From assembly GCF_008711285.1 (NCBI RefSeq), contig NZ_VXDC01000005.1:280330-344329 (forward strand): a DNA stretch of 64,000 nucleotides, read 5' to 3'. Positions 56,770 through 62,638 of this stretch are shown in pieces. The translations under genes were made by a program, and so were the position numbers. Source of the stretch: Roseibium aquae. GTDB taxonomy: Bacteria > Pseudomonadota > Alphaproteobacteria > Rhizobiales > Stappiaceae. A model generated the notes under the pieces. That model did not search any database and was not told the DNA's origin. It worked only from the letters and a program-made list of their open reading frames with translations. Each line of letters starts with the position of its first letter. The first letter of the stretch is position 1.

Positions 56770-57024
56770 ATGATCATCGATACTGTGCGTAACTTGTTGT
56801 CCAAACATGGCGGGATCCCGGTTGCGGTCGACCAGTTGGCCGATACCGACGACTTATACGATGCCGGTCTGTCTTCCTTTGCGTCCGTTCAGCTGATGCT
56901 GGCGCTCGAAGAGGAGTTCGATGTGGAGTTTCCAGAGCATCTCCTCAATCGCAAGTCCTTCGCGTCCATTTCGGCCATTGCAGCGGCTTTGTCCGAAATC
57001 GTAGAAGATCAAGAGGTGGCTTGA
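56770..57024 (+). CDS. Acyl carrier-like protein
   Basis: An 84-aa carrier protein with the four-helix ACP pattern. The phosphopantetheine attachment motif is AGLSSFASVQLM, with Ser36 the likely site (SSF in place of the usual DSL), followed by the acidic helix LALEEEFDVEFPE. It lies two genes before an amino acid:[carrier protein] ligase, and such ligases act on a carrier protein encoded nearby. This is therefore very probably its substrate rather than a fatty-acid ACP. Confidence 0.9.
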   Translation: MIIDTVRNLLSKHGGIPVAVDQLADTDDLYDAGLSSFASVQLMLALEEEFDVEFPEHLLNRKSFASISAIAAALSEIVEDQEVA

Positions 57025-57026
57025 TC

Positions 57027-58208
57027 ATGAATGTTGCCGGACCGATCATGGCGTTGACCTTGGCTGAACGTGCGAAACGAGCCGCCAAGGTGGCCGGGCA
57101 ATTCGCCGACACTGTGGACAAGAACGGCCGTTTTCCGCAAGAGGGTATGGACGCTTTGAAGGCCGAACGCCTGATGGGGCTGATGGTCAGCCCTGATTTC
57201 GGCGGAGAGGGGGCGACACTGACGCAGATCGCGGATGTCTGCGGTATTCTGGGCCAGGCTTGCGCGTCGACGGCCATGACCTACGCCATGCATCAGATCC
57301 AGATGGCAAGCCTTGTGGATCATGCGGCTGGCAGTGCGTGGCACGAAAAGTTCCTGCGCCGGATTTGCGAGGATCAGCTTCTGATCGCCTCGGCCACGAG
57401 TGAGGCCGGTATTGGCGGAAACCTGCGCAACTCGATTTGCGCGATCGAGGTTGACGGTGACAGGGTGCGCCTTGAGAAAGACGCGACTGTCATTTCCTAC
57501 GGCGCGAATGCGGATGCCGTGATGGTGACCTCTCGCCGCCACAGTGAAGCGGCGCATTCCGATCAGGTCGCGACGATTTTCCTGAAGGAGCAGTATTCGC
57601 TGGAACGAACCGCGGTCTGGGACACGCTCGGAATGCGCGGAACATGCTCCGACGGTTACCTTTTCAAGGCCGAAGGCCCGGCTGAGCAGATCCTGCCCAA
57701 ACCCTTTGCGGAAATCGCGGCGCAATCCATGCTGGCGGTTTCGCACCTTTTGTGGGGGGCGCTGTGGTTTGGCATTGCTGCCGATGCGGTTGCGCGGGCG
57801 CAGAGCTTCGTCAGATCCGCCGCCCGCAAAACGCCGGGTCAAACGCCGCCCGGAGCGCTGCGCTTGGCGGAAGCCTCAAGCCTGTTGCAACTGGTGAAGG
57901 CCAATGTCGTGGCCGGCCTCAAGCAGTTCGAGAATGCAAAAGGCGAGCCGGACGCGCTCAATGCGATGAGTTTTGCTGTTGCCATGAACAATGTGAAGAT
58001 TGGGACGTCACAGACCATCTTGACGATCATCAACCACTGCATGCTGATTTGCGGTATCGCCGGATACAAGAACGGCACCCCCTTCAGTCTCGGGCGGCAT
58101 TTGCGGGATGCGCATTCGGCGCAGTTGATGATCTCCAACGATCGTATTCTCGGCAATACGTCGACCATGCTGCTCGTGAACAAACAAGACACCAGCCTGT
58201 TAGGATAA
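57027..58208 (+). CDS. Acyl-CoA dehydrogenase-like flavoprotein, atypical active site
   Basis: A 393-aa acyl-CoA dehydrogenase-fold protein (ALTLAERAKRAAKVAG, later ASATSEAGIGGNLRN and VWDTLGMRGTCSDGY). In ordinary members the C-terminal region has RDARxxxIYEGTxE, whose Glu is the catalytic base. Here the matching segment is LRDAHSAQLMISNDRILGN, with no Glu at that place by eye. It starts three bases after the carrier-protein stop and precedes the ligase by four. It probably oxidises or otherwise modifies the aminoacyl group held on the carrier protein. ATG 57027 follows AGAGGTGGCTTGATC. Confidence 0.86.
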   Translation: MNVAGPIMALTLAERAKRAAKVAGQFADTVDKNGRFPQEGMDALKAERLMGLMVSPDFGGEGATLTQIADVCGILGQACASTAMTYAMHQIQMASLVDHAAGSAWHEKFLRRICEDQLLIASATSEAGIGGNLRNSICAIEVDGDRVRLEKDATVISYGANADAVMVTSRRHSEAAHSDQVATIFLKEQYSLERTAVWDTLGMRGTCSDGYLFKAEGPAEQILPKPFAEIAAQSMLAVSHLLWGALWFGIAADAVARAQSFVRSAARKTPGQTPPGALRLAEASSLLQLVKANVVAGLKQFENAKGEPDALNAMSFAVAMNNVKIGTSQTILTIINHCMLICGIAGYKNGTPFSLGRHLRDAHSAQLMISNDRILGNTSTMLLVNKQDTSLLG

Positions 58209-60128: not shown

Positions 60129-60154
60129 CGTCTTCGGTTTCGATCCCGCCAGTC

Positions 60155-62638
60155 ATGACGCCCTCCGGTCTGGAACTGGAGGCACCGGCGCGCGTATTGT
60201 GCGACCACTGGACCCTTTGGGTCACCGAGCCCGGTCCGCCAGGTTTCGACCTGCCTCCTGAGCCTGGACCGGACAGAATAGATGCGCAGGTGCCGGGGAC
60301 ATCGGCGGGGGCGCTGCATCGCGCCGGCCGGTTCGACCTTGAGAATCCGGCCCCGCTTCACGACAAGGATATCTGGTACGAGACCCGCTTTCCGGCTGCC
60401 GATCCTGGGCGATACCGGCTCGTTTTCGAAGGGCTGGCCACGATCGCAGATGTGTATCTGAACAAGCAGCTCATTTTGACCAGCCGGGGGATGTTCACTC
60501 CCCGGGAGGTGGAGGTGACGCTTGAACCGGACAATCATCTGGCGATCGGCTTCCGGGCGCTTTTCCCCGAGTTGGACAAGAAAGGGCCCCGGGCACGCTG
60601 GAAGCCGCAGCTTGCCACCTCGCAGGGCCTTCGGCTGGTTCGCACAACACTGTTGGGTCACATGCCAGGCTGGTGTCCGGAAGTTCATGCGGTTGGGCCG
60701 TGGCGTCCGATCACGCTTCATCGGGCCGATGCGCCGCGCGTCCATGACCTCCGGCTTCAGTCAAGCCTGAAACAAGACGGCACCGGGACCCTCCGGTTCT
60801 CAGGCCGGCCGGAAAATCTCGATGGGACACTGACACTCCGGTGCGCCGGCCAACAGGCGATCATGCGGCTTCAACCTGATGGGAGCGTTCTTGGGGAGCT
60901 GTCTATCCCGGATGTCGCGGCATGGATGCCCCACACGCACGGGGTTCCGCATCTTCATGACATCGAACTGGTCAACGGTGACCGGACGATTAAGCTTGGC
61001 CGGACGGGCTTTCGGCGGATCGATGTCGATCGCGGACCCGATGGCAAAGGCTTCGGGCTCGTGGTCAATGGCATTCGGGTCTTTTGCAGGGGCGCGGTCT
61101 GGACCCAGGCAGATCTCCTGAATTTGCCGGGAGGGGAAGCGGCTTACCGGCCATGGTTGGAGCTTGCCCGCGCCGCAGGCATGAACATGCTTCGTGTCGG
61201 CGGAACGATGACATATGAAACGCGGGCCTTTTTCGATCTTTGCGCCGAGTTCGGTATTCTGGTCTGGCAGGACTTTCAATTCGCCAATTACGACTATCCG
61301 GTCTCTGACCCAGGTTTTGCGGAGGGCGTTCGGAAAGAGGCCGCTTGTCAACTGAACCTCCTCCAGGGCTGCCCGTCCCTCGGCGTTCTGTGCGGAGGCA
61401 GCGAGATCTATCAGCAGGGCGCGATGATGGGCCTTCCCGAAAGCCGCTGGAAAGGGCCTTTGACCAAGGACATTCTGGCTGAAATTGCAAGGGACTACAG
61501 GCCCGACGTGCCTTATATCGAGAACGCTCCCTCGGGCGGAGCGCAGCCGTTTTCACCGAACGAGGGGATTGCCCACTATTATGGCGTCGGGGCCTATCTC
61601 CGTCCGCTTGAAGATGCCAGACGCGCTGAAATCCGCTTCGCGGCAGAATGCCTTGCGTTCTCGCATGTGCCGGATCCGGCGGTCATTGCGCGGGCCGGTC
61701 TTGGCAATCCCGGACATGACCCGCGCTGGAAGGCGCGCATTCCGCGTGATCGCGGCGCGGGCTGGGATTTCGAGGATGTCCGGGATCATTATCTGCGAAC
61801 GCTCTACAAGGTCGAACCGGCGGAAGTCCGCTATGGCGATCCGGACCGGTATCTCGACCTATCCCGCGCGGTGACGTGCGATATTCTGGAGCAGACCTTT
61901 GCCGAATGGCGCCGCGGCCGGTCGGGATGCCAGGGCGCCCTGGTGTGGACGTATCAGGATCTGATGCCAGGGGCGGGATGGGGCGTGATCGACGCGAATG
62001 GGCGCCCAAAACCGGCCTATTACGCATTGAAGCGCGCGTTCCGGCCCGTCACCCTTGCACTGACCGACGAGGGCACCAACGGGCTTGCCGTTCACATCCT
62101 CAATGACACTCCGTCCATCCGGACGGTTGCGTTGAGCCTGGTCTGCCTGCGGGATGGGACCACCCCGGTTGTTACCGGCAACCGCGACCTGGATTTGCAA
62201 CCGCATAGCGCCATGGAGATCCCCGCCACGGATCTGTTTGGGGCCTTCTTCGACACGACCTATGCCTATCGGTTCGGTCCCCCCTCGCATGATGTCACTG
62301 TGGCCCGGTTGTCGGACAGGCAGACAGGACAAGTGTGTGCCGAAGCGTTCCACTTTCCGTTGGGATTTTCCCAAAGCCGGCACCCGCTCGGGATCGAAGG
62401 CGGCTTGAGCGAACTGGCCAATGGACAATGGCAACTCACACTGGCGGCTCGAAGGTCCTTCCGCTTCCTGCAGATCGAGGCCGATGGGTATTCCCTGTCC
62501 GACAACGGGTTTCACCTTGCCCCCGGCGCGGACAAGACAATTGTCCTCACGCCTGAGGCCGGAGCGGCGGGGAAGGTTCCTGACTGCAAGCTTTGGGCGA
62601 TCGATGGCGTTGGCTGGAAAACGGTCAGAGGCGGCTAA
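60155..62638 (+). CDS. Glycoside hydrolase family 2-like protein (beta-mannosidase-like)
   Basis: An 827-aa GH2-type protein without a signal peptide. The N-terminal jelly-roll (IWYETRFPAADPGRYRLVFEG and ADVYLNKQLI) and immunoglobulin-like domain precede the TIM barrel (MNMLRVGGTMTYETRAFFDL, ILVWQDFQFANYDYP). The acid/base candidate is Glu417 in CGGSEIYQQ, where other GH2 enzymes have Asn-Glu. The nucleophile candidate is Glu498 in RFAAECLAF. The Asn-to-Ser change before the first Glu is unusual. It is the last gene of the carrier-protein operon. It may process a glycosylated intermediate in the cytoplasm rather than degrade polysaccharide. Confidence 0.86.
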   Translation: MTPSGLELEAPARVLCDHWTLWVTEPGPPGFDLPPEPGPDRIDAQVPGTSAGALHRAGRFDLENPAPLHDKDIWYETRFPAADPGRYRLVFEGLATIADVYLNKQLILTSRGMFTPREVEVTLEPDNHLAIGFRALFPELDKKGPRARWKPQLATSQGLRLVRTTLLGHMPGWCPEVHAVGPWRPITLHRADAPRVHDLRLQSSLKQDGTGTLRFSGRPENLDGTLTLRCAGQQAIMRLQPDGSVLGELSIPDVAAWMPHTHGVPHLHDIELVNGDRTIKLGRTGFRRIDVDRGPDGKGFGLVVNGIRVFCRGAVWTQADLLNLPGGEAAYRPWLELARAAGMNMLRVGGTMTYETRAFFDLCAEFGILVWQDFQFANYDYPVSDPGFAEGVRKEAACQLNLLQGCPSLGVLCGGSEIYQQGAMMGLPESRWKGPLTKDILAEIARDYRPDVPYIENAPSGGAQPFSPNEGIAHYYGVGAYLRPLEDARRAEIRFAAECLAFSHVPDPAVIARAGLGNPGHDPRWKARIPRDRGAGWDFEDVRDHYLRTLYKVEPAEVRYGDPDRYLDLSRAVTCDILEQTFAEWRRGRSGCQGALVWTYQDLMPGAGWGVIDANGRPKPAYYALKRAFRPVTLALTDEGTNGLAVHILNDTPSIRTVALSLVCLRDGTTPVVTGNRDLDLQPHSAMEIPATDLFGAFFDTTYAYRFGPPSHDVTVARLSDRQTGQVCAEAFHFPLGFSQSRHPLGIEGGLSELANGQWQLTLAARRSFRFLQIEADGYSLSDNGFHLAPGADKTIVLTPEAGAAGKVPDCKLWAIDGVGWKTVRGG

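Follow-up and report, generated by a model that had tools for sequence, protein, structure and literature searches.

What becomes of the aminoacyl group that a SerRS-like amino acid:[carrier protein] ligase places on its carrier protein? The 64,000-nucleotide stretch of Roseibium aquae DNA analysed here (the window) raises this question at positions 56770-62638, where such a ligase is encoded on the + strand together with a carrier protein, an acyl-CoA-dehydrogenase-like (ACAD-like) flavoprotein, a DUF1839 protein and a GH2 protein. A 2022 review, in its passage on ligase-catalysed carrier aminoacylation, describes the biological role of the reaction as unknown (PMC9437257). A note added in proofs to a 2010 article (Biol Direct 5:48) described linkage of the ligase with liposaccharide genes, a glycosidase, a carrier, a redox enzyme and the conserved but uncharacterised protein Atu2574, for which it predicted amide formation between an amino acid and an amino group on a cell-surface sugar (PMC2922099). 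From gene order we infer that Atu2574 is the DUF1839 protein. Having compared the locus with its counterparts in other genomes, we lean towards the reading that the operon serves carrier-dependent acylation or aminoacylation of an exopolysaccharide sugar via DUF1839, and we report a tandem hydrolase as its sixth, nearly constant partner. The genes are:

56770..57024, + strand, aminoacyl carrier protein of 84 amino acids (PF00550, 2.8e-9; NF005480, 112 bits, cut-off 72)
57021 (TTG) or 57027 (ATG) to 58208, + strand, ACAD-like flavoprotein (PF02771, 2.9e-10; PF00441)
58213..59121, + strand, SerRS-like amino acid:[carrier protein] ligase (NF005479, 486 bits, curated cut-off 357; C121/E166/C269)
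59112 (GTG) or 59124 (ATG) to 60128, + strand, DUF1839 protein (PF08893, 421 bits)
60125 (GTG) or 60155 (ATG) to 62638, + strand, GH2 beta-mannosidase-like protein (PF22666, 1.4e-15)

Conservation of the five genes

Within the operon, genes overlap or are separated by a few bases to 26 bases; a GH2 start at 60125 gives a GTGA overlap with the DUF1839 gene, and a start at 60155 leaves a 26-base gap. Coordinates and family scans agree with the initial annotation, made from the letters alone, that the five genes are tightly packed on one strand. Promoter and terminator scans found sites no commoner than in shuffled sequences. All eight plasmid loci that we opened (of 59 matching records), from Shinella, Rhizobium, Azospirillum, Mycetohabitans, Caballeronia and Methylobacterium, carried the five genes in the same order. 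Among 20 stretches from relatives, 17 held all five and three lacked the ligase alone. The set was likewise complete in 75 of the best 80 of at least 580 loci from named genomes, the other five being cut by contig ends (L052, L079) or lacking the ligase alone (L048, L056, L063). Being made up of the closest relatives (58-77% identity), this set of 80 represents diversity poorly, and several of its genomes recur among the 20 stretches. Because the plasmid loci and nearly all of the best 80 loci were complete, the grouping is not a matter of chance. The initial annotation had treated the genes as one operon and proposed surveying the neighbourhoods of the ligase family; in this survey the five genes mostly occurred together. 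The five-gene set is real, conserved and had been noticed earlier, and the biochemical interpretation given to it, namely that an aminoacyl thioester is oxidised on the carrier, passed on by DUF1839 and combined with a sugar, is partly supported.

An even draw of 289 genomes from the class contained DUF1839 in four and the ligase above its cut-off in seven; the ligase adjoined DUF1839 in all four, with all five genes nearby in three. A draw from the phylum yielded a DUF1839 gene in 16 of 398 genomes, and a search of viral contigs confirmed none. Three ligases above the cut-off in the class draw occurred without DUF1839, two with ACAD and amino acid-metabolism genes and one with carrier and tandem hydrolase genes. 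At L128 and L130 (genomes G130 and G200), ligase and ACAD genes stand beside MetY-like and MetA-like genes; one locus also has sulfate adenylyltransferase-like genes, and the other an adenylation-type ligase, an SDR and a carrier gene (all judged by eye from the sequence). This context may represent a separate pathway. The segment of G191 that separates the ligase from the tandem hydrolase (L129:7850-9500) looks repetitive by eye and gave no DUF1839 or GH2 match.

The ligase and its carrier protein

The ligase, which scores above the curated cut-off of its family, aligned along its whole length with the solved ligase 4h2w (1.7e-89), which we take to be from Bradyrhizobium. Its C121, E166 and C269 align with the Cys-Glu-Cys set of 4h2w, presumably the zinc ligands, and are kept in 116 of 117 rows, with one gap. 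At 302 amino acids it matches the C-terminal part alone of a SerRS type of 518-527 amino acids, that is, the core without the tRNA-binding domain. The carrier protein matched both chain C of 4h2w, an aminoacyl carrier protein (3.8e-25), and Atu2571 (2jq4; 4e-25), and its predicted phosphopantetheine site, Ser36, is present in all 115 aligned rows. The alignments behind these residue counts, and behind those given below for the flavoprotein and the GH2 protein, took only hits above 60 bits and include some genomes twice under two locus identifiers. The Cys-Glu-Cys spacing and the candidate Ser36, both picked out in the initial annotation, are borne out.

The system thus resembles the ligase-carrier pair of Bradyrhizobium Bll0957 and Agrobacterium Atu2571: the family is the same over the entire ligase, the Cys-Glu-Cys set is common and the carrier is close to Atu2571. 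Unlike those systems as they are known, the Roseibium ligase sits in an operon with DUF1839 and GH2 genes. The gene numbered next to bll0957, bll0958, appears as an acyl-CoA dehydrogenase in an excerpt of one study (PMC10888616), and this pairing resembles the DUF1839-free contexts of L128 and L130.

DUF1839 as a predicted carrier-dependent transferase

Single-sequence structure prediction of DUF1839 was useless (pLDDT 37.7), and the AlphaFold2 (AF2) model reached a pLDDT of 94.8. The predicted fold is papain-like and matches over its full length CcbD/LmbD, the lincosamide condensing enzyme, CtaG of closthioamide and AziU3/U2 (Foldseek TM-scores 0.52-0.66). These structures have a catalytic Cys near the N-terminus, given as C19 and C11 in entry titles; its counterpart in DUF1839 would be C37, which begins a helix in the model. 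CcbD and CtaG partner with a carrier protein, as we propose for DUF1839. Conserved residues among 117 DUF1839 sequences are C37, H132, T135/T136, H153 and R298, of which C37, H132 and H153 are invariant; a Cys-His-acid triad in canonical order is at most a candidate. DUF1839 differs from CcbD, CtaG and AziU3 in having no detectable sequence similarity to them, a SerRS-like loader and a Cys-(Thr/Ser)-His triad, as modelled in part of a 2023 survey (PMC10318531). We do not file DUF1839 as a member of that group and predict from the modelled fold that it works like one, as a CcbD-like, carrier-dependent cysteine transferase. The earlier suggestion that DUF1839 passes on the carrier-bound group fits this predicted likeness to carrier-dependent amide synthases. 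BtrH_N (PF14399) gave no match in five DUF1839 proteins, where PF08893 and two chance rows were the only matches up to E 10, HMMER filters dropping most very weak ones. Some DUF1839 proteins (P0131, P0209, P0078) carry the label serine--tRNA ligase or succinylarginine dihydrolase in their source records, apparently in error.

Many papain-like enzymes are hydrolases, and DUF1839 might itself be a hydrolase, or an editing thioesterase or peptidase, that cleaves amides on surface glycans. The papain-like fold with its Cys-(Thr/Ser)-His set speaks for such an activity, which is close to the acyl-CoA-dependent glycan processing suggested for DUF1839 in the same part of the 2023 survey (PMC10318531). 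With the full-length fold match to carrier-dependent amide synthases on the other side, we consider a hydrolytic role improbable and prefer the transferase reading.

The flavoprotein and the GH2 protein

The ACAD-like protein matches profiles of dehydrogenases and of amino sugar nitrososynthases, DnmZ for example, alike. In a by-eye alignment, the positions that we take to be those of the MCAD-type and IVD-type catalytic Glu are occupied by I371 (I or V) and S241 (S, A, T or C), with no Glu in 116 of 117 rows and a gap in the last. Residues H242, W245, N373 and R375 are kept, H242 in 116 of 117 rows with one gap. With no Glu aligned at either place where the base usually sits, a conventional alpha,beta-dehydrogenation looks doubtful, and carrier-bound glycine could not undergo it at all. 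Caution over the missing Glu is called for by 7p98, the best solved match: it is named a dehydrogenase and has Thr at the first of these positions. Our preferred reading of the sequence is an oxygenase or N-oxidase rather than an alpha,beta-dehydrogenase.

The GH2 protein is closest to beta-mannosidases (2vjx, 1.2e-48). E427 and E508 align with Glu residues of 2vjx, presumably the acid/base and nucleophile pair, and both are present in 114 of 114 aligned rows; hydropathy of seven N-termini revealed no signal peptide. Because both Glu residues are kept and no signal peptide was seen, the protein is probably cytosolic and active.

A tandem hydrolase as a sixth partner and the exopolysaccharide context

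Beyond the window seen in the initial annotation, the operon has a nearly constant sixth partner, a fused tandem alpha/beta hydrolase of about 600 amino acids. Its gene lies near the operon in 53 of the best 80 loci and at L015 is joined to that of a Wzx-type flippase. In Azospirillum brasilense Sp7 (L017), the hydrolase gene follows the operon directly. The protein is a fusion of relatives of exosortase-A-associated hydrolases 2 and 1 (TIGR03101 and TIGR03100), lying in R. aquae beside exopolysaccharide genes; it differs from these families in being fused and in scoring below their cut-offs (56-109 bits in four proteins against TIGR03100 and TIGR03101, cut-offs 168 and 203). The second half carries a candidate Cys nucleophile, with Cys, Asp and His each kept in 73 of 74 rows. 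In the first half, the nucleophile place is taken by G or R in 66 of 74 rows and by Ser in three.

We found the full-length hydrolase in 26 of 26 DUF1839-positive relatives and 0 of 35 negative ones (Fisher 8e-18), in 4 of 4 versus 1 of 285 genomes of the class draw (2e-8) and in 16 of 16, from four families, versus 1 of 382 of the phylum draw (1e-27), P values that overstate the association because genomes within a genus are not independent. Pooled over the three draws, the hydrolase was present in all 42 distinct DUF1839 genomes, including G023, where it is split into two contig-end pieces and was scored as present. The class and phylum negatives are less sure than those of the relatives, since there the best three to four first-look candidates per genome were scored. 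Weak or partial matches were left out, namely those at E 6.5e-6 or weaker in DUF1839-negative relatives, those in G207 and G184 of the class draw and those in G655, G571, G538, G482, G493, G363, G638 and G665 of the phylum draw.

The R. aquae hydrolase gene lies outside the window, at C33:20376-22034, 319 kb from DUF1839 (contig C33 has 344329 bases and ends at window position 64000). It is flanked by GT4 and deacetylase genes on one side and by Wzz, Wzy-like, GT4 and WecG genes on the other. Because Wzz-type genes occur in 59 of 61 relatives, their presence is uninformative and nearness alone counts: at most 20 kb separates Wzz from DUF1839 in 22 of the 26 genomes, counted without a random-site control, the exceptions being R. 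aquae, G023 (a contig-end case), G046 and G059. The sugar proposed initially as the partner of the aminoacyl group is supported by this exopolysaccharide neighbourhood and by a GH2 protein that keeps both catalytic Glu residues.

Alternatively, the operon could make a small diffusible amino sugar conjugate, DUF1839 coupling a free amino sugar to the carrier-bound amino acid and GH2 activating or recycling the product. CcbD of lincosamide synthesis acts on a free thiooctose, ligase and ACAD genes without DUF1839 occur beside MetY/MetA-like genes and once with an adenylation-type ligase (L128 and L130, by eye), and the R. aquae operon is distant from its tandem hydrolase gene. A diffusible product is at odds with an exosortase-type hydrolase in every DUF1839 genome of the three draws and with the nearness of Wzz in most of the relatives, and we regard it as unlikely compared with acylation of an exopolysaccharide sugar.

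Operons that lack the ligase

The ligase was searched for in 30 of 37 Roseibium genomes, comprising 23 that are DUF1839-positive and 7 of the 14 that are negative. It was present in 19 of the 23 and in none of the seven. Four genomes (G006, G028, G034 and G035), one of them a single contig, lack the ligase anywhere and keep the other four genes, so the earlier description of an operon "built around" the ligase is too strong. The ligase-less loci (L023/L048, L033/L063, L034/L056 and L139, the last from G035) are scattered over the Roseibium tree, and in none of the four genomes is a ligase-sized gap left between ACAD and DUF1839. The ratio of nonsynonymous to synonymous change (pN/pS) of their kept genes, 0.08-0.41, is in the range of ligase-bearing pairs and is only rough because synonymous sites are near saturation; by this sequence measure the kept genes are under purifying selection. 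In a tree of ACAD, DUF1839 and GH2, three of the four ligase-less operons each group with a different relative that has the ligase, at support 0.998-1.0; the fourth branches separately. The simplest account of these sequences would be several losses of the ligase with retention of the rest of the operon.

As a replacement loader we considered an exosortase-type acyl-CoA ligase (TIGR03098) and set it aside: all 30 genomes had matches, none at the cut-off, which is uninformative because such ligases are common. No gene family was shared by at least two of three ligase-less stretches (those other than G035/L139) and confined to them.

These operons bear on a further alternative, in which a non-amino-acid acyl group is loaded, the ligase is optional and loading is generally done by an acyl-activating enzyme of the host. 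The scattered, genome-wide absence of the ligase and the purifying selection on the remaining genes would fit it. The ligase is nevertheless present in most DUF1839-positive Roseibium genomes and in 77 of the best 80 loci, and absent from the negative genomes searched; we judge this alternative very unlikely.

A proposed pathway and the points against it

For acylation of an exopolysaccharide sugar, we propose the following order of events. The ligase would form an aminoacyl-adenylate and load the phosphopantetheine thiol on Ser36, as is established for its relatives. Next, the ACAD-like flavoprotein may oxidise the aminoacyl group while it sits on the carrier; for this step, oxygenase or N-oxidase chemistry is more likely than alpha,beta-dehydrogenation. 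By analogy with CcbD, Cys37 of DUF1839 would take the group as an acyl-enzyme and pass it to a sugar amine or hydroxyl. The acceptor would be an exopolysaccharide building block or repeat unit handled in the cytosol, where the GH2 protein could trim a beta-linked sugar off the acceptor or off failed products. The tandem hydrolase, through the Cys-His-Asp set of its second half, may edit or offload the group. More tentatively, and with somewhat more doubt than belief, we put forward a narrower version: DUF1839, as a CcbD-like amide or ester synthase with a rearranged Cys-Thr-His triad, would take the aminoacyl group, once oxidised, off the carrier charged by the SerRS-like ligase and put it on the exopolysaccharide block, with the tandem hydrolase as an obligate partner, this would be the missing role of the ligases, and in Roseibium the ligase would have been swapped for another loader at least three times.

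Several points weigh against this proposal, among them the inflated Fisher values, the less certain negatives and the uninformative presence of Wzz described above. DUF1839 is linked to CcbD and CtaG by predicted fold alone, at 10-13% identity and 3.5-4.2 A root-mean-square deviation, and a common fold does not show a common function; neither CcbD nor CtaG was among the DUF1839 profile matches up to E 10, so that no sequence relationship was found. The triad modelled in the part of the 2023 survey cited above is Cys-(Thr/Ser)-His and not canonical (PMC10318531), and the catalytic His is not fixed because two His are invariant. G191 and G642 have the tandem hydrolase without DUF1839, and G246 of the class draw has DUF1839 and, in the segment examined, no match to GH2. 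In R. aquae itself, the operon and the exopolysaccharide cluster are 317-319 kb apart. Finally, because four genomes keep the operon without the ligase, the transferred group is not necessarily an amino acid everywhere.

Genes upstream of the operon

A block of ADH, PTPS, GT4 and methyltransferase genes at 52152-55531 of the window was tried as a part of the pathway. It occurs in 15 of 17 Roseibium stretches (L023-L039) and in 13 of the best 80 loci. We rejected it because ADH is genus-wide and independent of DUF1839, being present in all 37 Roseibium genomes, 14 of them DUF1839-negative (one of these with a contig-end piece only and two with matches at 44-50% identity). Within the block, ADH is BchC-like, and PTPS is 82-90% identical among relatives. 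In 22-28 loci, and at L015 on a plasmid, genes for EF-P, EpmA and a lysine-2,3-aminomutase-like protein immediately precede the operon; we take these neighbours as probable regional synteny.

Relation to earlier work and significance

The 2010 prediction for Agrobacterium, in which the redox enzyme modifies the aminoacyl group, matches the present reading in the gene linkage and in the sugar proposal; its proofs section, the part compared here, contains no fold, catalytic residues, tandem hydrolase or ligase-less operons (PMC2922099). Our search of the open-access literature found no functional study of DUF1839 or of Atu2571-Atu2575; a transcriptome study, in the part concerned, merely lists Atu2573. 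New here are the fold predicted for DUF1839, its near-perfect pairing with the hydrolase, the exopolysaccharide placement, the ligase-less operons and the flavoprotein without Glu. With them the 2010 prediction takes a concrete form that can be tested.

If the proposal is true, the ligase family gains a testable role, with a descendant of the tRNA synthetases feeding exopolysaccharide decoration. Amino-acid-derived groups on the exopolysaccharide would give the bacteria a different charge and alter their contacts with surfaces or hosts. The reach of CcbD-type amide synthases would widen from rare antibiotics to include a surface polymer.

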